Positions 1 to 33,040 of a stretch of 33,605 nucleotides of DNA are shown one piece after another. The stretch comes from a virus. The number at the start of each line of letters is the position of its first letter. Within the stretch, counting starts at the first letter, position 1. The stretch spans positions 1 through 33,605 of the IMG/VR virus record IMGVR_UViG_3300008450_000219; one strand, given 5' to 3'. Below the pieces are notes generated by a model, which saw only the letters and a list, made by a program, of their open reading frames with translations, ran no database searches and had not been told where the DNA came from. The translations under genes and the position numbers were made by a program.

Positions 1-1051
1 CCGGTGGTGCCTTCAGCGCCCTGCGAATGGCCGTGTTGCCACGGCTTGGTAGGTTCTGTAAGTTGAGTTTGTCGCCGCCACTGAAGCGCCCAGTGTGGGC
101 ACCGTAGTAGTTCAGCATGATGGGCAGTCGGCCACGTGACTGCACCCCGATCAGTGCCGCAGTGCGTGTCTCCTCCAGTGTGGATTTAACCCCAAGGCGG
201 GCGGCCACTACACCCTGCACACGTTCATCAGGATGTTCCAGCAAGTCAGTCATGCCCTTGTCGGTCTTGGCAAATGCCCACGATTCCTTGCCTGTCTTGA
301 GACTGGTCTTGGTGGGTGGCTCGATGCCGAGGTTCTTGAGGTACTTGGCAAAGATGTCGTTGCTCATCAGCATCTTAGTTAGCGCCTCCTCGCTCACCCC
401 CGTGAGGCCGAGGTCAGAGATCAGAGTGCGCTTGCGGGTGCGCACTTCTTCAAGGTGCTTCTCCAGCAGCGGCACGTCGAGTTCAATCACAGGGTCGGTG
501 TACATCCGCAGCGTCTGATCAATCACCAACAACTCGCTGGATGGGAAGCCGACCTTGAGCTTGTTCCACAGGGCATACGTCAAGTCCACATCGTTAATGC
601 AGTACTGTCCGTACTGAGCGAGGTCAGCCTCAGTGAAGTCAGCCTTGTGCTTACCCAGTGCAGCCACGACCTCATCGCCCTTCTTGCCCAGCCCGTAGTA
701 GGACACCAGCTTGGCGAGTGATCCACCCACCGTGATGTTGTGCAGTGGTCGGGCCATGCTCAGAGTGTCCAGCCACAGCTTCGGGTTGATACCGAAATGC
801 CATGCGAGGATAGCCCCATCGAACGCTGTGTTGTGGCACAGGATAGCCCGCTTGCTGTAGTCCAGTGACTGGAGGAACTTGCCGGGGTTGTCGCCGGAGT
901 ACCAGTCAGTTGGGTAGTCGTTGACCTTGACACCCACACCGATGATCTCGAACCTCGGATCACGGATGTACGCCTCGGTGGTCATCTTCGACAAGCTGAA
1001 CTGCTGGTCGTAGTAGGTTTCAAAGTCGATGGTTACGATGTCCATTGCCAT
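1..1051 (-). CDS. Family A DNA polymerase, N-terminal part (cut by window edge)
   Basis: This is the first 350 residues of a phage replicative DNA polymerase with a proofreading 3'-5' exonuclease followed by the start of the polymerase domain. The sequence shows an Exo I motif DFET (D9, E11), an Exo II-like stretch HNTAFD, an Exo III-like YCINDVD, and near the edge TGRFSGGDKLNLQNLP, the conserved segment just before motif A of Pol I-type enzymes. No stop occurs in the frame up to position 1, so the palm, fingers and C-terminus lie outside the window. The start ATG at 1049-1051 shares one base with the upstream gene's stop codon, which suggests translational coupling. Family assignment is secure; the exact phage subfamily is not visible. 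Confidence 0.93.
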   Translation of the reverse strand, partial: MAMDIVTIDFETYYDQQFSLSKMTTEAYIRDPRFEIIGVGVKVNDYPTDWYSGDNPGKFLQSLDYSKRAILCHNTAFDGAILAWHFGINPKLWLDTLSMARPLHNITVGGSLAKLVSYYGLGKKGDEVVAALGKHKADFTEADLAQYGQYCINDVDLTYALWNKLKVGFPSSELLVIDQTLRMYTDPVIELDVPLLEKHLEEVRTRKRTLISDLGLTGVSEEALTKMLMSNDIFAKYLKNLGIEPPTKTSLKTGKESWAFAKTDKGMTDLLEHPDERVQGVVAARLGVKSTLEETRTAALIGVQSRGRLPIMLNYYGAHTGRFSGGDKLNLQNLPSRGNTAIRRALKAPP

Positions 1052-2912: not shown

Positions 2913-3152
2913 TTATTGAATGGGGTGTTCGGGAACTGTCATGCGAGACATGATCTCGCCCAACTGCCATGTCACTGCTGCAATGAACTCGTCCGTTGAC
3001 AAGTCAGACCTCGCGCCGGACAGTGCAAGCAGCGTAAGTAGAGCGTTGACAGTCACACTGAACTCTCGGGTATCACTACCCATAGCAGTGTTGATCTGGG
3101 TTACAAGTGCCATCACCTTGGCGTGGTATTCAGCGGATTCTGTACTCATCAT
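2913..3152 (-). CDS. Small acidic hypothetical protein, 79 residues
   Basis: A small, probably all-helical soluble protein of unknown function. It begins with two methionines (ATGATG) so the first residue is ambiguous by one. It overlaps the stop of the upstream peptidase/VWA gene by four bases, so it is translated as part of that operon. No domain is recognised. Its position immediately after the ATPase-DUF3150-VWA block makes it a candidate accessory subunit, which is inference from location only. Confidence 0.65.
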   Translation of the reverse strand: MMSTESAEYHAKVMALVTQINTAMGSDTREFSVTVNALLTLLALSGARSDLSTDEFIAAVTWQLGEIMSRMTVPEHPIQ

Positions 3153-4261
3153 TCCATCTCCACAATCTCACCGAAGGGTGCTTTGCCGGGGTCTGTCGTG
3201 ACCCACAGCACTGGTGCATCGGGCTGATCTCCGAAGCTGTTGCAGCACAGGTCAGTCAGGAACACGATGGCTACGGGGTTGATCGCAAGTTCAGTGATCT
3301 TGGCAAAGACTGGTGCGAAGTCGGTGCCGCCACCGCCGTGGGGCTTGATGTCCAGATCATCGTGGGGTTCGTAACTCTCCACGTGGCTGACCTCACTGTC
3401 GAAGTACAACACGTGGATACGCTCAGGCATCAGGTCTTCCTTGACCCGCTTGATCTCGGCAGCGAACTGGTTGACTGTCCTCTGGTCGATGGAGCCGGAG
3501 CAGTCCACAGCGAAGCACACCTCACCCATCTGCTCACCGCTGACACTGGGCAGGTACAGTCCTTGTGCAATGAAGCGGCGATTGAACCGAGCAAAGGATC
3601 GCTGGTCAGTGCGGGCTTTGACGAGGAACTTTTGCAGCACCTCACGCCAGTCCACCTTGGGTTGCAGCACATCATCCACAAGACGTTGCATGTTGGCAGA
3701 CATCTTGCCCATCATCTTGGCTGCTTGCGCTGCTTGGGCTACCTTCACCTTCCACTCAGCTTGCTGCTGCGCTTGGTCGGCAGGGCTACCGTCACCGTCC
3801 TCGCAGTCATCGAGTGGGTCTTGCTCGTGGTCTTCCGGCAGGATGTTGTAGATACCCTCACTGGTGCCGTGCCCAGCGTTGTAGATCGCATCGTTGTGCA
3901 GTCCCATCTTGGGCATCTTGCCGATGCTTTCATCGGTCAACAGCTTGTTGATCACGTAGTCCGCAGCTTGGTTCCAGCGCCGTGGGGTACGCTCACCACG
4001 CCGGAAGTTGTGTTCCAGCATGGGATGGAAGCACTCGTGGGCTACGAGGAACTTGACTTCCTCATCGGTCAGCTTGTCCACGAACTCGGGGTTGAACTTG
4101 ATCCGCTTGCCGTTGGTTGCCGCAGTGGGGATGCTCTCGTCAAACTCGAAGGGCATACCCAGCGCAATGGTACCCACGAAGGGATGCTCCAAGATCAGGG
4201 ATGTCTTGGCCTTAGCCAACTTGGTAGTCAGCCGTTTCATATCCAGTGTTGCAGTTGTCAT
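3149..4261 (-). CDS. Zinc-peptidase-like plus VWA-domain protein
   Basis: A 370-residue two-part protein. Residues 60-90 hold a zinc-peptidase motif HECFH (H75, E76, H79). Residues 235-360 form a von Willebrand A-like domain with a complete metal-binding MIDAS pattern: DCSGS (D243, S245, S247), T313 in GGGGTDF, and D337 in FLTD. An acidic, glutamine-rich linker (about 140-170) separates them. This architecture matches phage and bacterial putative metallopeptidases of the DUF2201/VWA-like type. The start ATG at 4259-4261 is chosen because AAGGAG sits just before it; the frame remains open further upstream but overlaps the neighbouring gene. It is encoded with a MoxR ATPase, the usual partner of VWA proteins. 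Confidence 0.85.
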   Translation of the reverse strand: MTTATLDMKRLTTKLAKAKTSLILEHPFVGTIALGMPFEFDESIPTAATNGKRIKFNPEFVDKLTDEEVKFLVAHECFHPMLEHNFRRGERTPRRWNQAADYVINKLLTDESIGKMPKMGLHNDAIYNAGHGTSEGIYNILPEDHEQDPLDDCEDGDGSPADQAQQQAEWKVKVAQAAQAAKMMGKMSANMQRLVDDVLQPKVDWREVLQKFLVKARTDQRSFARFNRRFIAQGLYLPSVSGEQMGEVCFAVDCSGSIDQRTVNQFAAEIKRVKEDLMPERIHVLYFDSEVSHVESYEPHDDLDIKPHGGGGTDFAPVFAKITELAINPVAIVFLTDLCCNSFGDQPDAPVLWVTTDPGKAPFGEIVEME

Positions 4262-4271
4262 CAGTCTCTCC

Positions 4272-5120
4272 TTACAGTTGTCCCATGAACGCACCCATTG
4301 CATCCATGATTTTCTTAGCCTCAGCAGCAGTGTCCTGCCTGAGATCGGGGTCGTTACGCAGAGCTTCAGGATGCTTGAGCAAGGTTGCCTCAACTTGTTG
4401 GCGCATGGCTTCCAAGTGAGGGTCATCGCTGAAGTTAAGTCTCGGCAGCAGGGCACAGATTTCCCGAGTGTTCTCCAGCATGGAGTCCCGGAAGATCGCC
4501 TTGGGATCGGCCAGCTTCTCAGCCATGTGCTTCACCCTGTCGTACAGTCGCTGCCACACATCCTTCAACGCGGCCTGCTCTGCATCCTTCACACGCCGCT
4601 CAACATCTTGCTGGATGCGTGTCAGTTCTTCACTGCCGATGCTTACCCGGAAGTCCGAACTCGGCACTGGGAACACAGCCATATCCATGTGGAACTTGTG
4701 CCGCAACTCAAGCACTGGCGGGTAGTCCGAGTGGTCGTAGAGACTACCAAGAATCCGTTGAGCGTCAAGTTTGAGGCTGTCGTAGTTGTCGATGAAGTCC
4801 TGCACCAGACTGTTCCACTCGCTGCGTTCCTTGCGGAAGTCAGACATGAAGGACAGGTAGTTGGCAGTGGGCAGCATCATGGTGCCGTCCATACCCCAAG
4901 GCAGGGTGTTGTCGTAGTACTTGGTACGGATGTGGGTTGTCTTCTTGTGGATGTTATCCAGCAAGTCAGACATGGGGAGCAGCGCCTTGTTAAAGCGCCC
5001 AGCAGCCGCAGTCGTGCCGTGGCTGGTGATCACCTCCTTGGTCGCCTTCTTGTCATACTTGCGGGCTGTCCACTGGGACACGTTCAGTTGCACCAACAGT
5101 GCTCGGTCGTTGAGATTCAT
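4272..5120 (-). CDS. DUF3150-like protein, middle member of the ATPase/VWA block
   Basis: A 282-residue protein, mostly helical, beginning MNLNDRALLVQLNVSQWTARK and continuing with long charged helices (RIQQDVERRVKDAEQAAL). The N-terminal pattern and its place between a MoxR ATPase and a VWA protein fit the DUF3150 family, which has no known biochemical activity. A GAGGAA ribosome site supports the start. It ends ten bases before the next gene's start. It may serve as an adaptor or substrate for the ATPase; that is inference from gene order. Confidence 0.72.
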   Translation of the reverse strand: MNLNDRALLVQLNVSQWTARKYDKKATKEVITSHGTTAAAGRFNKALLPMSDLLDNIHKKTTHIRTKYYDNTLPWGMDGTMMLPTANYLSFMSDFRKERSEWNSLVQDFIDNYDSLKLDAQRILGSLYDHSDYPPVLELRHKFHMDMAVFPVPSSDFRVSIGSEELTRIQQDVERRVKDAEQAALKDVWQRLYDRVKHMAEKLADPKAIFRDSMLENTREICALLPRLNFSDDPHLEAMRQQVEATLLKHPEALRNDPDLRQDTAAEAKKIMDAMGAFMGQL

Positions 5121-5167
5121 TTGATTCCTCTAAAGATGTTGTTGGATGTGTGTTTGTATTTCGCAGA

Positions 5168-5188
5168 GATACGTCCCCGTGACGTATC
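5168..5188. other. Perfect 8-bp inverted repeat between the ATPase and DUF3150-like genes
   Basis: GATACGTC, a five-base spacer, then GACGTATC. It lies in the only sizeable gap (82 bases) of this part of the leftward operon. No T-run follows on the - strand, so it is not a standard terminator; it may be an mRNA hairpin that changes stability between cistrons or a protein-binding dyad. Confidence 0.6.
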
Positions 5189-5202
5189 CCCGCTCCACTC
5201 TG

Positions 5203-6189
5203 TCAGAACAGCACGTCTTGGTGGTTGATTGACCACTTGGTGAAGGCTTGGGTGTTAGCCAAGTCAGGGTTGCGCCGTGCTGCATAGCTCACTGTCAGCA
5301 CACTGAACTCGGGGGGCATACGTTCGCTGTACTGGCAGACCCTCTCGAAGTTGGACTCAGTGGCCCGCTGTGCAATGGCACCAGACAAGGCATACAGAGT
5401 GGCAGGGTCTTTGGGAACGTCAGCAGTCTGGGGGTTGAGTAGGATGGCATCAGGGTTGGGCAACTTGCGGAAGATACGAACGAAGCCAACGAACTCGGCT
5501 GCTGCACCCTCACCAACTGCACCTTTGAAGCACTCGAACTCAGCCTCGGATGGCACTGTACCCAGCACATCGGACACACCGTCAACCCAAGCACGGGGAG
5601 TGGCGTTCTGGTCACGCTGTGGATCGAAGTCATGCAACAGACCGGGACGGAAGCGGATGAAGCTGATCACCTCGGGCTTGACACCGTGGTTGATGGCCCA
5701 TGAAGTCCAGTCGTCAAGGTGTGTCTCCAACTCCAGCACTGTCTCACGGTTACGCAGATGACTCAGCACTCGGTTGGCACCAGCACGGTCAGCTTGCCTG
5801 TTACCAGTGGACACCACCATCCAGCCATCAGGCATCGGTGTGCCATGCAGTGTCCGGGCTTGGCAGATGTTGGCAAGAACCTTTTGCAGATCAGGGCCAG
5901 CTTGGTTGCGGTCATCGAACAGCAGGATGCCTTGCTCTGGGGACTTGCCCTTGACAGGGAACCAGTCAGGCAAGCGGTAGTTCAGCTTGTCAGTGTTGTC
6001 TGGGAACAGAATACCGAAGTCCTCCACAAGCATGGTTGGCATGTGACGTTCGATGCAGGGGATGTCAAGTTCCTGTGCCGCCTCGTGGACGATGGTTGTC
6101 TTGCCACCACCGGGGGCACCCTCAATGGACAGGGTACGGGTGATAGGGAACAGGGACTTGATGGTTTCTTTCAGCAGTGTGGCTCGCAT
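5203..6189 (-). CDS. MoxR-type AAA+ ATPase
   Basis: A 328-residue AAA+ ATPase. It has a Walker A motif GAPGGGKTT (24-32), a Walker B-like ILLFDD (88-93), a sensor-1 stretch VVSTGN (N130) and a following arginine-rich LSHLRNRE that could hold the arginine finger. The overall order is that of the MoxR family, ATPases that remodel protein complexes together with VWA partners. The second acid of Walker B is Asp rather than the usual Glu. It is the first gene of the ATPase/DUF3150/VWA block and has a GAGAGGA ribosome site. The partner protein presumably gives specificity, and the cellular target is unknown. Confidence 0.88.
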   Translation of the reverse strand: MRATLLKETIKSLFPITRTLSIEGAPGGGKTTIVHEAAQELDIPCIERHMPTMLVEDFGILFPDNTDKLNYRLPDWFPVKGKSPEQGILLFDDRNQAGPDLQKVLANICQARTLHGTPMPDGWMVVSTGNRQADRAGANRVLSHLRNRETVLELETHLDDWTSWAINHGVKPEVISFIRFRPGLLHDFDPQRDQNATPRAWVDGVSDVLGTVPSEAEFECFKGAVGEGAAAEFVGFVRIFRKLPNPDAILLNPQTADVPKDPATLYALSGAIAQRATESNFERVCQYSERMPPEFSVLTVSYAARRNPDLANTQAFTKWSINHQDVLF

Positions 6190-6410: not shown

Positions 6411-6594
6411 TCTGTACCCCCTTGGCGTCGATGTAAGTTTCACCACAGCCAGCCATCCATTCGATCAGAAACACAGCCATCAGTACACCGATGACTGTCG
6501 CCGAGATGACATAGGATACCCACCGTGCAACACATAGCCACAAGGGGTCATTGGCAGAGCGGCCAGCGGGCCGGATGCGTTCAGGTTCGTTCAT
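6382..6594 (-). CDS. Small single-pass membrane protein, 70 residues
   Basis: The protein has a short polar N-terminus and one hydrophobic span at about residues 22-50 (VARWVSYVISATVIGVLMAV), then a polar tail with two cysteines. The ribosome site CGGAGGAA supports the start, which overlaps the upstream NinX-like gene by four bases. Early phage genes of this type often act on the host membrane, but no specific role can be read here. Confidence 0.65.
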   Translation of the reverse strand: MNEPERIRPAGRSANDPLWLCVARWVSYVISATVIGVLMAVFLIEWMAGCGETYIDAKGVQNVNECVFIR

Positions 6595-6995
6595 TTGAGT
6601 TCCTCCGGTAAGTCAATGTTGTCACCCAGCTTGCTGGCAACGTAGCACCGCATGGCTGCGATCAAGGCAGTGGGGCCGGTGTATTCGTATGGTTCGCCTT
6701 CCAGTGTGGTGTAGGCTGTCCATGTGCCCGTGTACTCATCAGGCGTTAGCTGGATGGCTTCCTCCTCAATGATCGGGCCGCCATGTTGCCATTTGGTTGA
6801 TGGGTCGTACTCGGCTTTGTAGTACACATCAGGGCATGGGTTTAACCGCACGATAGGGGTGCCGTCTGTCCAATACTTCATGTCGAGCACTACGGAAGGC
6901 ACCATCTTCCCGAAGTAATCACGGGGGTCAAGCAACCCTTCGGCCTTTGCCACCGCCCAATCAAGGGCGTGTCCTGTCAGTTCAGATGTTTTCAT
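6591..6995 (-). CDS. NinX-like protein (DUF2591 type)
   Basis: The start MKTSELTGHALDWAVAKAEG is characteristic of the phage NinX/DUF2591 family, named from P22 and found in the nin region of many phages. The family has no established biochemical function. The 134-residue length is typical. A second conserved-looking part lies near the end (TGPTALIAAMRCYVASKLGD). The start at 6995 is chosen over a longer version because it overlaps the previous stop in an ATGA arrangement and matches the family start. Confidence 0.8.
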   Translation of the reverse strand: MKTSELTGHALDWAVAKAEGLLDPRDYFGKMVPSVVLDMKYWTDGTPIVRLNPCPDVYYKAEYDPSTKWQHGGPIIEEEAIQLTPDEYTGTWTAYTTLEGEPYEYTGPTALIAAMRCYVASKLGDNIDLPEELK

Positions 6996-7441
6996 TCTTG
7001 CTCTCCATGCGTGTCTTGCCAAATTGCTTCGGCCTGTTGCTCAACCTCTTCCAGTGCCTCATCAAATCGCTTTCGATATTCAGAGGGTGTTTCCTCCAAC
7101 TGCTTTGATTCAATTTCAATTTCATCAGTGTCGTAATCAGCGCCCTCAACGATGCTCCCAACAGTAAAAGACACGGCCAACTGACCTCGCTCGTCCATTG
7201 CTTGCCAAGTTCTCAAATCGTCCAAGTCATCGCCGCTAATGGTTTTGCGAACCATCTGTTCATGGTAGTCGTCAAAGCAAGTGCCCGACACTTCTAAATA
7301 TTCAATGGTTATGCTCAGGTACGCGCCGCAATCGGTGTATTTGTACACTTGTCGATACAACTCGGCGGGGCCATCTGCATCAGGAAATGCTTCTGCAAAA
7401 TAGCGATTGCTTTGATCTTCTGCGTCTGGATAATCTCTCAT
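6992..7441 (-). CDS. Acidic hypothetical protein, 149 residues
   Basis: A strongly acidic protein (clusters such as ISGDDLDDLRTWQAMDE and DYDTDEIEIESKQ) ending in a charged helix, KRFDEALEEVEQQAEAIW. No family is recognised. Highly acidic early phage proteins can mimic DNA or sequester basic host factors, but nothing specific supports that here. The start has an AGAGGACA ribosome site located inside the end of the previous gene, with a four-base overlap. Confidence 0.66.
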   Translation of the reverse strand: MRDYPDAEDQSNRYFAEAFPDADGPAELYRQVYKYTDCGAYLSITIEYLEVSGTCFDDYHEQMVRKTISGDDLDDLRTWQAMDERGQLAVSFTVGSIVEGADYDTDEIEIESKQLEETPSEYRKRFDEALEEVEQQAEAIWQDTHGEQE

Positions 7442-14622: not shown

Positions 14623-16689
14623 ATGGCTGGACTGACATTCCTGCGGGTCGTATCGAACTCTGAACTTGCTCGGCAAGAGCAAGAAGTTTCAGACCGCGCT
14701 CTGCAAGAGCGTCAGAATCAACCCGTCATTCTTGGCTTGGCCGGGTATCTGAGGCAATGTTGGGATGTCGCCCAGATGGCGAAGAAGCCCATCGAGTACA
14801 TCATGCTGCGTGCGCTGCGTCAGCGCAACGGCCAGTACGACGCAGACAAGCTGCAACAGATTCGAGGACAGGGCGGCTCTGAGATTTACATGATGATCAC
14901 CGAAGTCAAGTGCCGCGCTGCGGAGTCTTGGCTGCGGGACATCCTGCTCGACAATGGCTCCCCACCGTGGGATTTGCAGGCCACCCCTATCCCCGACCTC
15001 AACCCATCGCAGACCAAGGACGTGCAGGCGATCTTCGCCGAGCGCGTGATCAAGATGGTCGAGGAGTTTGGCAAAGCTCCGAACCAAGAGGAAATGGCTG
15101 AAATCCGCGAGATGGTCAGCCAAGACTACCGCTTCACTATCTTGCAACAAGCGCAGCTTCGCGCGGACAGGATGAAGATCAAGATTCAAGACCAGTTCGC
15201 CCAAGGCGGCTGGGAGGCTTCGTTCAACGACTTCATCACCGATCTTGTGACGTTCCCTGCGGCGTTCATCAAAGGGCCGGTTGTGCGTCGCCAGCGGGCG
15301 CTGGGTTGGAAAACCAACGCGATGGGCCAGACTGTGGTCGAACCCATCGAACGCCTTGGGCCAGAGTACGAGCGGGTTGATCCCTTCTACATCTACCCCG
15401 AGCCGGGGATCAGCAACATCAACGAGGGCTACCTGTTCGAGTACCACCCATTGAGCCGGATGCAACTGTCCGATCTCATTGGCGTTCCGGGTTACGACGA
15501 GGATGCCATCCGCAAGGTGCTGGAGATTGGCAACGGCCAGTCGTGGATCAATGAAGACGTGGAACTCCAAAAGGACGAGGAGGAGCGCAAGTACTACTCG
15601 TACATGAAGCCAACTACCGAGTTCGATGCTCTGGAGTTCTGGGGCAAAGTGAGCGGAAAGATGCTGCGCGAGTGGGGGCTGACCGAGGAGGAAGTCCCCG
15701 ACGACGCCCGCGAGTACGACGCCAACGTCTGGATGGTGGGCAACTACGTCATCAAAGCGGTGCTCAACTATGACCCGCTGGGCGAGAAGCCCTACGCCAA
15801 GACTTCGTTCATCAAGTGCCCCGGAGCGTTCTGGGGCAAGGCGATCCCCGAGATCATCGAAGACTTACAGGGCGTGTGCAACGCCGCTGCCCGTGCGCTG
15901 GTTAACAACATGGGCATTTCCAGCGGCCCGCAGGTCGAGGTCAACGTGGAGCGCCTGCCGCCCAACGAGGACATCACCCAGTTGACGCCTTGGAAAATCT
16001 GGCAGACCATCAATGATCCTGTGGGTTCGAGCGCCCCGGCCATCCGGTTCACGCAGCCTGACTCACGGGCAAACGAACTCATGGGTGTATACGAGAAGTT
16101 CAGCCGCTTGGCGGACGATCACTCGGGCATCCCAGCCTACGTGTACGGCGATCTGAATGTGCAGGGTGCGGGGCGCACTTCGTCTGGCCTGTCCATGCTT
16201 ATGGGCGCGGCGGGCAAAGGCATCCGCCAAGTCGTGATGCACATCGACACAGATGTTGTGAAGCCCATCGTGCTGCGCCAGTTTGTGTACAACATGCGCT
16301 ATGATGAGGATGAGTCCATCAAGGGCGACGTTGAAGTTCTTGCCAAAGGCGCGATTAACCTCGCAGTCAAGGAGACTGTCAACATTCGCCGTATCGAGTT
16401 TCTCAATGCAACCGCCAACCCGATTGATCTTGAGATCATCGGCAAGGAGGGACGTGCCAGTATCCTTCGGGAGATCGCAAAAGGGTTGCAAATGTCCGTG
16501 GAGGACGTTGTTCCGTCTCGGGAGAAGGAAGGGTATACCGGTCGTATCACCGCACGGGCTGCGATGGCCGCTGCACAGCAGCAGGCGCAGCAACCCCAAG
16601 GTGGCGCACCACAAGGCCCTGACGGCTCTCCCAAAGGCGGGATGGAAGCCAACACGGTACAAAGTCGTGCAAGTGGGATGGCAGCATGA
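14623..16689 (+). CDS. Portal protein
   Basis: A 688-residue protein in the standard place between terminase and scaffold/capsid. Large portals of 600-750 residues are usual for short-tailed phages. Portal-like features include the long helical start, WLRDILLDNGSPPW, EFGKAPNQEEMAEIREM, the central PFYIYPEPGISNINEG, and a C-terminal Gln/Pro/Gly-rich tail (AAAQQQAQQPQGGAPQG). The portal forms the twelve-fold ring through which DNA enters and leaves the head and on which the tail is built. The function is assigned from size, order and pattern; the N-terminal start follows the previous stop by one base. Confidence 0.88.
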   Translation: MAGLTFLRVVSNSELARQEQEVSDRALQERQNQPVILGLAGYLRQCWDVAQMAKKPIEYIMLRALRQRNGQYDADKLQQIRGQGGSEIYMMITEVKCRAAESWLRDILLDNGSPPWDLQATPIPDLNPSQTKDVQAIFAERVIKMVEEFGKAPNQEEMAEIREMVSQDYRFTILQQAQLRADRMKIKIQDQFAQGGWEASFNDFITDLVTFPAAFIKGPVVRRQRALGWKTNAMGQTVVEPIERLGPEYERVDPFYIYPEPGISNINEGYLFEYHPLSRMQLSDLIGVPGYDEDAIRKVLEIGNGQSWINEDVELQKDEEERKYYSYMKPTTEFDALEFWGKVSGKMLREWGLTEEEVPDDAREYDANVWMVGNYVIKAVLNYDPLGEKPYAKTSFIKCPGAFWGKAIPEIIEDLQGVCNAAARALVNNMGISSGPQVEVNVERLPPNEDITQLTPWKIWQTINDPVGSSAPAIRFTQPDSRANELMGVYEKFSRLADDHSGIPAYVYGDLNVQGAGRTSSGLSMLMGAAGKGIRQVVMHIDTDVVKPIVLRQFVYNMRYDEDESIKGDVEVLAKGAINLAVKETVNIRRIEFLNATANPIDLEIIGKEGRASILREIAKGLQMSVEDVVPSREKEGYTGRITARAAMAAAQQQAQQPQGGAPQGPDGSPKGGMEANTVQSRASGMAA

Positions 16690-22328: not shown

Positions 22329-22616
22329 ATGAGCAAGATGTACATCCGAGTTAAACGCGACGGTTTTATTTATGACTACAACCCCATCATGGCGAAAAAC
22401 CCTGAGTGCGAGGTTGTGCCCGAAGAAGTCGCGTACCCCGAGCGGTTCATCCCGCCTGCCGCTGCGCAGCGTATCGAGGACGCCGCCGAAGTGGTAAAGG
22501 TTACTGGGCGCAAAAAGAAAGCTGCACTCGACTTGTCAACTGCTGACATTCCAGAGGCTCCAGCGTATACTCCTCCAGAATTGGCTGAGGAAGCCTCACG
22601 AGGATTGCCTGCATGA
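22329..22616 (+). CDS. Small structural-type hypothetical protein, 95 residues
   Basis: The protein has a beta-like start (MYIRVKRDGFIYDYNPIMAK), a Glu/Pro/Ala-rich rest, and a basic patch GRKKKA. AAAGGA precedes the ATG and the end overlaps the adaptor gene (ATGA). Its place suggests a minor head or connector component. No family is recognised. Confidence 0.66.
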   Translation: MSKMYIRVKRDGFIYDYNPIMAKNPECEVVPEEVAYPERFIPPAAAQRIEDAAEVVKVTGRKKKAALDLSTADIPEAPAYTPPELAEEASRGLPA

Positions 22617-23257
22617 CACCCAACGAAGTCATCACTGAAGCGCGTCGTCTGATCCAAGACACCAAAGCGCCGTACCGCTACAGCGATGCGGTGATGCTTG
22701 GCTTTGTCAACCAGACACTCAAACGCATGGTGGTGCTTCGCCCCGATTTGTTCGCCGTCATAGGGACATTCCCTATGTCTGTGGGTACCGTCTTACAGAG
22801 TTGCCCTGCGGACTCTACTCGATTGATCGAAATCTTCCAAGTCCAAGGTGGAAGCGCGGTTACTGAAGTTACCCGTCGGGTGCTTGATCAAACGTCTCCG
22901 TCGTGGGTGAGCGAAGCGGCTGGCACACCAGTGAACTTCATGCGGCATGTGCGCAATCCCAACCGATTTTTTGTATCTCCTCCACCTGCGTCGGGTGTTG
23001 TCCTCGTCGGGGAGTACGCGCAGACGCCACCAGATTACACGATTGACCAAGAGATTACGTACCCCACGGATGCCTACTTCCCGGTCGTTGTGGACGGCAC
23101 CGTGTTCTTGGCTGAGTCCATTGACAATGAGCATGTCAACTCGAACCGCGCCAAGTTGTTCCAAGATGCCTTTGTTCAGGCATTGGGAGTGGGGCTACAG
23201 TCCCGCACCGTCACTGACACAGAGGAAAGCGGGCTTGACCCGAGACAGGTGATCTGA
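22613..23257 (+). CDS. Head-tail adaptor protein, DUF6682-like
   Basis: A 214-residue protein with an all-helical start (NEVITEARRLIQDTKAPYRY, then SDAVMLGFVNQTLKRMVVLR) and a beta-rich rest (FFVSPPPASGVVLVGEYAQT). This helical-then-beta order, a place after the head genes and this length fit phage adaptors that sit under the portal; I associate it with the DUF6682 family. It overlaps the previous gene by four bases and the next by one. Confidence 0.74.
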   Translation: MTPNEVITEARRLIQDTKAPYRYSDAVMLGFVNQTLKRMVVLRPDLFAVIGTFPMSVGTVLQSCPADSTRLIEIFQVQGGSAVTEVTRRVLDQTSPSWVSEAAGTPVNFMRHVRNPNRFFVSPPPASGVVLVGEYAQTPPDYTIDQEITYPTDAYFPVVVDGTVFLAESIDNEHVNSNRAKLFQDAFVQALGVGLQSRTVTDTEESGLDPRQVI

Positions 23258-30601: not shown

Positions 30602-33040
30602 ATGGCAGGCATAAAAATCGCAGGATTCCTTGGGACGGCCCCAAAGATTTCGCCTGAGTTGCTGCCCAACACGGCGGGGCAGATTGCGGCCAACTGCAAA
30701 CTGTATTCTGGCGATCTGATCCCATACCCTGAGCCTGTTGTTGTGGATAACACCGGTCGCACGGGTGTGATCAAAACATTGTTTGCTCTGCGTGACCCGG
30801 ACACCGACGAGAAGAAGTGGCTGACGTGGCTTACCGACGTGGACATCGCTGTTGCCTCCAAGACCGATAAGGACGAGCAGCGGTTCTATTACTCGGGCGA
30901 CGGCGCTCCCAAAGTCAGCAACTACGAACTGGCAACAACGGGGGCTACGCCCTACCCGGTTGCGGCGTATGACCTTGGTCTGCCGCTGCCCACCACAACG
31001 GCGACAACTTCCGCAGCCACGTTCACGACCCAGACAACGGCCAGCTTCTTCCGGGATGCTGGCAACATAGCGACCATCACGACTGGTTCAGCACACGGAT
31101 TAAAGTCGGGGAGCCTCATCACTGTTTCAGCGTTCACGTTCCTCTCCGGTACGTACAACCAAGTTGCGTCCACCACGATCACTGTGACGATCACGGCGCA
31201 CGGACTATCCAATGGCGCAGTGGTGTCGCTGGACTTTCTGTCTGGCAGTGCTACGGATGGCACCTACACTGTCAGTAATGTCGCCGCCAACACGTTTGAC
31301 GTTATCGCATCGGCAGTAGCAACTACCAGTGGAAGCGTCAACCTGAGTCTGGCGAGCTTCAACGCAACCAATGTTGAATGTACCGTGACGGGCACGACCA
31401 CGTTCACCTACTTCAGCCCCGGCTTTCAGATCGGCACCTCTGGTACGCCCATCGCCTTTACGACTGGCAAGGTTGATCTTGGCGGACAGACGCAGGCTCG
31501 TTCCTATGTCTACACGTGGTACACCCCTTGGGAGGAGGAGTCAATCGCCTCCAAGCCGTCCACTGACTTGTTCATCAAGGAGGGGCAGATCGTCACGGTG
31601 TCGAACCTCCCCACAGCCAAGCCGACGGGGAACAACTTTGTACGTGGCATACGGCTCTACCGCACGCTGGCGGCTGCGTCGGGTACGGAGTACTATCTAC
31701 TCTCGACGTTGTGGTTCCCCACAGGGTTGGCTTCGGTACAGCGCACCACCAATGTCTCGCGTGTTGCGCTGCTGTATCCGCACAACTTATCGGTTGATGA
31801 CCGCTTCAAAATCAGCGGTTGCACCGTGGCGTCTTTTAACATCACAGACGGCATCGTCACGGATGTGATTGACGACTACACGTTTGAATACGCGCAAGCT
31901 GCTGTCGATGTTGCCAACACATTAGTGGCCGCAGGCACATTGTTCCATGACGTGTCTGAGAACCCGCCCACAACGACCGCACGGTACTGGGGTGACGGCG
32001 GTGTGTACACATTCACTGATGACTTTGACTCCCGTGACCTGTTCGACATTCTTGCCACGGATAACTACGACCCGCCGCCCGAGGACTTGCAGGGGCTGAC
32101 GGCTATTCAGAACAACATCCTTGTCGGTTTTGTTGGTAACACGTTGTATTTCTCTGAGCCGGGTGCGCCGCACGCATGGCCTGCTGCGTATGCAGTCACT
32201 CTTGAATACAACGTCGTAGGCATTGCAACAATCAGTGGTTCCGCGCTGGTAACAACGGACTCATACCCGTATATTGTTTCGGGTTCTGACCCAGCTAACG
32301 GGATGTCCCGGTCGCGTATTGACGCCAACTTCCCATGTTTAAATAAGAACAGCATAGTCTCGATGGGTTACGGTATTGTGTACTCCACGCACGATGGGTT
32401 GGCGGTCTACTCCCCCAGCAGTGGCGCGGCGATCATTACTAGGCTGCTATACAACAATGACACATGGCAGTCCAGCATTGATCCTGCGACAGTGGTGGCC
32501 GAGTACTACGGGGACAACTACTTTGCCTCGCACTCAACCGGAGCGTTTGTGTTTGAGCAGGACGCAAAAGTCGGTGGGTTTTTCGTCAACCTCGACTACA
32601 GCTTCTCAGCGTCGCACTACGACGCAATCGACGGTATTGTTTATTACGTAAACGGGTTGTTGGGTGATATTTATGAGTGGGATAACCTTGAACAACCAAA
32701 CGTCACCCAAGAGTGGAAGTCCAAGGTGCTCGTCACAAAAGACATGATCAACCTTGGTGCTGCGCGTGTTATTGCCGACTACGCAACGCCGACCATTATT
32801 TGGGATGCGGCCACAACTCGGTGGGACTTGGAAACCGAAATATGGGACGCATCAAGCGTTGTGATATTCCGCATGTGGGTGGATAAGCAACTGATCTTCG
32901 AGACGACTGTCGATGATACCAACGGATTTCGCCTGCCGTCTGGGTACCGCACCGATACGTTTGAGATTGGTGTCGAAGGCGATATTCGAGTTCGCGCTAT
33001 TCATTTGGCCGAAACCATGTTGGGACTGAGGGAGGTCTAA
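30602..33040 (+). CDS. Large tail protein, nozzle-like (tail tubular protein B type)
   Basis: An 812-residue virion protein. Its start (GIKIAGFLGTAPKISPELLP, then NTAGQIAANCKLYSGDLIPY) resembles podovirus nozzle proteins that begin by listing 'data' strands and then fold as a beta-propeller-like tube, as in T7 gp12. Residues about 155-275 and 385-432 contain small HGL/HNL-type beta domains, one of which seems to be inserted into another. The C-terminal part (WDAATTRWDLETEIWDASSV and FEIGVEGDIRVRAIHLAETM) is typical of this family. Its start directly follows the endolysin stop. The functional name is by pattern and is moderately sure. Confidence 0.68.
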   Translation: MAGIKIAGFLGTAPKISPELLPNTAGQIAANCKLYSGDLIPYPEPVVVDNTGRTGVIKTLFALRDPDTDEKKWLTWLTDVDIAVASKTDKDEQRFYYSGDGAPKVSNYELATTGATPYPVAAYDLGLPLPTTTATTSAATFTTQTTASFFRDAGNIATITTGSAHGLKSGSLITVSAFTFLSGTYNQVASTTITVTITAHGLSNGAVVSLDFLSGSATDGTYTVSNVAANTFDVIASAVATTSGSVNLSLASFNATNVECTVTGTTTFTYFSPGFQIGTSGTPIAFTTGKVDLGGQTQARSYVYTWYTPWEEESIASKPSTDLFIKEGQIVTVSNLPTAKPTGNNFVRGIRLYRTLAAASGTEYYLLSTLWFPTGLASVQRTTNVSRVALLYPHNLSVDDRFKISGCTVASFNITDGIVTDVIDDYTFEYAQAAVDVANTLVAAGTLFHDVSENPPTTTARYWGDGGVYTFTDDFDSRDLFDILATDNYDPPPEDLQGLTAIQNNILVGFVGNTLYFSEPGAPHAWPAAYAVTLEYNVVGIATISGSALVTTDSYPYIVSGSDPANGMSRSRIDANFPCLNKNSIVSMGYGIVYSTHDGLAVYSPSSGAAIITRLLYNNDTWQSSIDPATVVAEYYGDNYFASHSTGAFVFEQDAKVGGFFVNLDYSFSASHYDAIDGIVYYVNGLLGDIYEWDNLEQPNVTQEWKSKVLVTKDMINLGAARVIADYATPTIIWDAATTRWDLETEIWDASSVVIFRMWVDKQLIFETTVDDTNGFRLPSGYRTDTFEIGVEGDIRVRAIHLAETMLGLREV

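Follow-up and report, generated by a model that had tools for sequence, protein, structure and literature searches.

A conserved AAA+ ATPase, DUF3150-like and zincin-VWA gene triad shared by phages and plasmids, and the protein-remodelling machine that it may encode

What would a phage do with a MoxR/midasin-type AAA+ ATPase, a DUF3150-like protein and a VWA protein fused to a putative zinc peptidase, all encoded side by side? The question is raised by the virus contig IMGVR_UViG_3300008450_000219, whose whole length of 33.6 kb (33,605 nucleotides, hereafter the window) we analysed. The triad lies on the minus strand and is transcribed in the order ATPase (positions 5203-6189, 328 aa), DUF3150-like middle gene (4272-5120, 282 aa) and zincin-VWA gene (3149-4261, 370 aa), followed by several small genes and then a family-A DNA polymerase gene cut at the contig end, which keeps its N-terminal exonuclease part (2-1051, minus strand; PF01612, 4.6e-7). 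The exonuclease domain of this polymerase is found in the window and the DNA_pol_A domain in a relative from the same cluster (L209). The plus strand, opposite the triad, carries the structural genes (terminase, portal, major head protein, tail fibre). A first-pass annotation of the bare sequence had described three open reading frames co-directional with a DNA polymerase, and this layout holds; its VWA reading frame, opened at GTG 4456, starts too early, since homologues align to ATG 4261, the likely start. Each of the three genes is preceded by a good Shine-Dalgarno sequence (AGAGGAAA, AGAGGAAT and GTAAGGAGAG). A DNA-level search of phage records gave no match.

Judged by its sequence, the first protein is a MoxR/midasin-type (MoxR/dynein-related) AAA+ ATPase. 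It matches phrog_1297 at 1.7e-69, and midasin is its best solved relative in profile comparison (1.3e-23); against Pfam AAA_5 it reaches 17 bits (cut-off 22), whereas its relatives from MinM2 and Simplicispira score above the cut-off. The Walker A motif reads G24-x-P-G-G-G-K30, which moves the Walker A lysine from K31, as first numbered, to K30. Walker B is D92-D93 and not the D-E of distant relatives, and sensor-1 is N130, while the candidate arginine finger R148 and the candidate sensor-2 residue R199 were both assigned from alignment alone. Across 133 ATPases, K30, N130, R148 and R199 are kept in every one, and D92 is invariant or nearly so.

The zincin-VWA protein is matched by both halves of DUF2201 (PF13203 at 2.8e-46, 158.8 bits; PF09967 at 1.5e-28, 99.9 bits). 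The HExxH motif and complete MIDAS site claimed for it are both confirmed: counted from ATG 4261, the peptidase motif is H75, E76 and H79, as originally numbered, with a further histidine at H84, and the MIDAS comprises D253-x-S255-x-S257, T313 and D337, so that of the residues proposed for mutation H75 and E76 stand, while D243 should be D253, the first MIDAS aspartate. D101 sits 26 residues past H75, and N105 four beyond D101, a spacing near that seen where thermolysin-like peptidases have their third-ligand helix; because of its distance from H75, D101 is a candidate third zinc ligand. With HExxH and this downstream acidic candidate, the protein carries the sequence features of a gluzincin-like metallopeptidase. 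The model of the protein (pLDDT 89.9) has a VWA fold in its C-terminal part (Z up to 12.7 over ~130-150 residues), and towards the N-terminus it is similar to selecase 4qhf (prob 0.96, with an E of only 0.055). H75, H79, H84, D101, D253, S255, S257, T313 and D337 are kept in 136 of 136 VWA proteins and E76 in 135, the exception being an E76G change (HGxxH, in L253) by which catalysis may have become dispensable in that relative. We lean, if slightly, towards a real, active peptidase. The name 'HNH endonuclease' carried by phrog_1314 was rejected, as Pfam, searched up to E 1, shows no HNH domain in the protein, which is a DUF2201 zincin-VWA.

The middle protein had been called DUF3150-like and placed between the ATPase and the VWA protein. 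Its position, fold and profile bear this out, whereas against Pfam DUF3150 itself (PF11348) it is missed, at 12.1 bits for a gathering cut-off of 24.9. Aligned by hhalign, the middle-protein profile matches that of canonical DUF3150 with Prob 95 and E 2e-8 (wrong-partner controls, Prob 0.2-0.3), and the best viral fold match, over the whole length, is a 'DUF3150 domain-containing protein' (TM 0.88, E 6e-20). Profile comparison and fold therefore support a DUF3150-related protein, which we name 'DUF3150-like'. Its AF2 model (pLDDT 88.7) has an N-terminal alpha/beta part (residues ~1-157) and a C-terminal helical bundle (~158-282). None of the solved structures in the PDB stood out as a fold match: helical-bundle matches mainly cover residues 158-282, and the N-terminal part is barely covered. 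We propose that it serves as an adaptor or third subunit. A MoxR-vWA-VMAP ternary conflict system was also considered and rejected, because the middle protein, compared with Pfam at E up to 1, shows no VMAP match, and its fold matches DUF3150.

Are the three genes neighbours by chance? A search of viral contigs with the middle protein returned 95 relatives, and in 80 viral loci the ATPase and VWA genes were present in the same order, save for seven loci that end at a contig edge. Wider searches brought the collection to 144 distinct loci, mainly on viral contigs and some bacterial, each of which has all three genes unless cut by a contig end; gene order varies among them, several being rearranged (e.g. 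ATPase-VWA-DUF or DUF-ATPase-VWA). In the 25 distant viral loci, where DUF identity to the window is below 50%, the triad is the sole gene set common to most. The residue counts given above include proteins as distant as 26-30% identity to the window. The identities of the three proteins show a rank correlation that is high overall and weak for distant pairs, read here with no neutral baseline. The first-pass annotation had named two findings that would speak against a joint machine, rare co-occurrence of the genes and free variation of the peptidase and MIDAS residues. Neither was seen: the three genes stay together across the 144 loci, and the residues are near-invariant across 136 sequences with identities as low as 30%. 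As HExxH, D101 and the MIDAS are invariant in those sequences but for the one E76G, the triad is a real, strongly conserved module, beyond chance, and the three genes very probably make up one functional unit.

In midasin and other MoxR-VWA pairs, a MoxR-type ATPase and a MIDAS-bearing VWA domain grip and remodel a client. Midasin (Rea1), RavA-ViaA and CbbQ-CbbO all pair such an ATPase with a MIDAS VWA domain, as the window does, but to our knowledge none joins a HExxH zincin to its VWA domain or has a DUF3150 partner. The conserved three-gene module and the intact peptidase and MIDAS sites support the MoxR-VWA-like logic first ascribed to this locus. On this model the ATPase would form an ATP-driven ring, and the VWA domain would dock through its MIDAS metal on an acidic residue belonging to either the ring or the client, by analogy with midasin; the DUF3150-like protein would be a dedicated adaptor joining ring, VWA protein and client, which would be unfolded or opened and probably clipped by the attached M48/selecase-like zincin. 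The machine would most likely act while the mobile element's DNA is being replicated, recombined or maintained, and not only when virions are built. Gene linkage, invariant active sites, folds and the recurrence of the architecture on plasmids are what the data show; complex formation, proteolysis, target and timing are inferred. Taken whole, the explanation stands in our estimate evenly balanced between right and wrong.

The plasmid loci bear directly on what such a machine could be for. Relatives of the middle gene were found on Burkholderiales, Rhodovastum and Variovorax plasmids; neighbours were examined on four, and the same triad was present on the Burkholderiales and Rhodovastum plasmids. 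On Burkholderiales PRTRC plasmids (e.g. pRK1-1 and pBcn842-1), as in the cyanophage MinM2, the three families of the window recur in the same order at 27-41% identity, with the middle gene usually labelled hypothetical. Two further records match the middle gene. On the PRTRC plasmids the triad sits in a maintenance/transfer setting beside the ParB-ThiF cassette: in a comparison of match lists, 41 plasmid records have the middle gene and 34 of these also carry the PRTRC ThiF gene, and on the two plasmids examined in full the triad lies ~6 kb downstream of it, a distance that is larger in some records. With 352 plasmid records matching PRTRC ThiF, the triad is missing from most PRTRC plasmids. 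Its presence on plasmids widens the question past phage take-over of the host, and the occurrence of the triad in many unrelated phages and plasmids suggests one shared machine that would reshape or cut a protein while the element's DNA is copied.

Among phages, the ATPase/zincin-VWA pair is already known. N4 gp24/gp25 (phrog_1297/phrog_1314) belong to the same families with the same active-site residues and lie near replication genes; they are core genes of N4-like phages and are middle-expressed (PMC4193335). The active-site residues are also kept in N4 gp25/gp24, phage G, PA5oct, CRP-7, phiFa and two Acinetobacter phages, and matching phage records number 537 for the VWA protein and 697 for the ATPase. 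In jumbo phages a MoxR plus metallopeptidase-vWA pair was described in 2021 and proposed to be a virion-assembly machine, with the MoxR-VWA proteins of archaeal ATV, which act in tail assembly, cited as precedent (PMC7824862). Under that proposal the AAA+ and VWA proteins would act as a chaperone that builds the head or tail and the zincin would process structural proteins. The ATPase of PA5oct carries an 'ESI-MS/MS' note, as do structural proteins in the same record, which may indicate virion association, and in RPP1 the virion genes adjoin the gp24/gp25 homologues (PMC4193335). We nevertheless consider this virion-assembly reading unlikely: the module is also present on plasmids, which make no virion, the window triad shares its strand with the polymerase and is opposite the structural genes, and the N4 copies are middle genes. 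For the same reasons, and because genes for DNA polymerase, helicase, primase, SNF2 or DnaB are found close to the triad in several unrelated viral backgrounds, with recombinase genes likewise counted among such neighbours, a role of the proposed remodelling machine in the DNA phase, rather than in virion assembly only, is modestly favoured, although gene neighbourhood speaks to function only indirectly.

A second alternative is counter-defence or host take-over, in which the machine would disassemble or cut a host complex that attacks foreign DNA. Such a role would account for presence in both phages and conjugative plasmids, and it agrees with the spread of the triad over phages and plasmids in a variety of hosts and with the co-occurrence of the PRTRC ThiF gene. 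The pair is, however, a stable core component of N4-like phages, and its slow-changing active sites are unlike those of typical fast-evolving anti-defence genes; the three window proteins also had no match to defence models, in a library that covers defence and not counter-defence. We regard this reading, too, as improbable.

How much of the preferred remodelling machine is new? MoxR-VWA chaperone pairs are known, as is the phage ATPase plus peptidase-VWA pair, so the claim that the system is not described fails for the pair (N4 gp24/gp25, jumbo phages) and appears to hold for the third partner. What may be new is the DUF3150 family as a regular partner of the AAA+/peptidase-VWA pair across phages and plasmids. 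In the literature searched, with subscription journals and preprints outside its scope, a constant DUF3150-like third partner was not found described, and no paper names DUF3150. The third protein is not a universal partner of the pair, since in N4-type phages no DUF3150-like gene could be detected in its neighbourhood: the search around the pair turned up none in N4, phage G, PA5oct, CRP-7, phiFa, nACB1 or Ab2712. If the partnership holds, one experiment with a laboratory phage or plasmid could be enough to assign a function to a gene set found widely in mobile DNA, whose members are now labelled 'hypothetical' or, wrongly, 'HNH endonuclease'.

Canonical DUF3150 has a comparable setting of its own. 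In proteobacterial genomes it lies between CobS-like AAA+ and CobT-like HExxH-VWA proteins; among seven proteobacterial loci, a CobS-like ATPase was found within ~11 kb in six, a CobT-like VWA protein in six and both in five. By tblastn, canonical DUF3150 is present on 1,168 plasmid records, of which 978 are typed conjugative, and on the four plasmids whose neighbours were examined, one of them IncC, the AAA+, canonical DUF3150 and VWA genes were grouped in every case, with ssb-bet-exo adjoining on two (the IncC plasmid and a Vibrio plasmid). This CobS-like/DUF3150 (PF11348)/CobT-like module of IncC-type and other plasmids thus brings together an AAA+ ATPase, DUF3150 and a HExxH-VWA protein, like the window. 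Searches of the IncC/SXT and CobS/CobT literature returned nothing on module function. Tentatively, and at somewhat less than an even chance, DUF3150-family proteins may be the hallmark of a general machine of mobile DNA with three parts (AAA+ ring, DUF3150 adaptor and zincin-VWA), found in two sequence flavours in phages and conjugative plasmids including IncC, that unfolds and cuts one particular protein of the host or the element during DNA replication or recombination. Metal or cofactor insertion in the manner of CobNST and MoxR activators, with ring and VWA protein remodelling a metalloenzyme of the phage or plasmid and the zincin fold serving only as a scaffold, draws on the CobT-like protein and the CobS-like ATPase of the plasmid flavour (TIGR01650 at 3.6e-30, far below its cut-off), but it is very unlikely, as the loci share no dedicated metalloenzyme partner and a bare scaffold would not need the HExxH found in 135 of 136 homologues.

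The two flavours differ in family, CbbQ/CobS plus CobT in one and phrog_1297 plus DUF2201 in the window. A control search with CobT (PF06213) yielded no canonical CobT locus for comparison. In the CobT-like VWA proteins a helix of the E-D-x-R-x-E type comes after an N-terminal HExxH, and there is a MIDAS, whose DxSxS is present in 8 of 8 proteins examined, as in the window; these proteins are longer than the window protein and have E, not D, in the likely third-ligand helix. Compared directly by profile, the zincin-VWA proteins of one flavour match those of the other weakly (Prob 51 over the HExxH segment and 33 over the VWA part), and the two may share an ancestor.

The window's gene triad encodes a MoxR/midasin-type AAA+ ATPase (5203-6189), a DUF3150-like protein (4272-5120) and a zincin-VWA protein (3149-4261) on the minus strand. 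Its three proteins share 99.6-100% identity with their counterparts on L002 and L003, contigs that each come from a different metagenome than the window does. Contig L161 (7.4 kb), which was assigned to the bin of an uncultured actinobacterium, has its own triad with a DUF3150-like gene 79% identical to the window's; as it may be a phage contig inside a MAG, it gives no safe host clue.

The gap between the DUF3150-like and VWA genes is approximately 400 bases longer in loci L005, L007 and L011 than in the window, possibly reflecting an inserted small gene. Among loci L085, L086 and L162-L173, a conserved protein of ~510-545 aa is encoded directly upstream of the triad in 11/12 Burkholderiales genome loci; its L086 copy had no NCBIfam match.

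Elsewhere in the window we identified a P22 NinX homologue (6591-7022; PF10765, 1.9e-21), a portal and an adaptor like their phage SU10 counterparts (14623-16689 and 22613-23257; PF23899 and PF24175, respectively) and an internal virion protein (30602-33040; phrog_511). The SU10-like portal and adaptor together with the internal virion protein give the window a podovirus-like gene layout.

The zincin-VWA protein is named 'HNH endonuclease' or 'homing endonuclease' by phrog_1314 and in many phage records. Since no HNH domain was found in the window's protein, this label looks wrong, and it looks widespread. In the VWA protein of locus L253 (9937-11262), HGxxH replaces the zinc-peptidase motif HExxH, the rest of the triad being intact.
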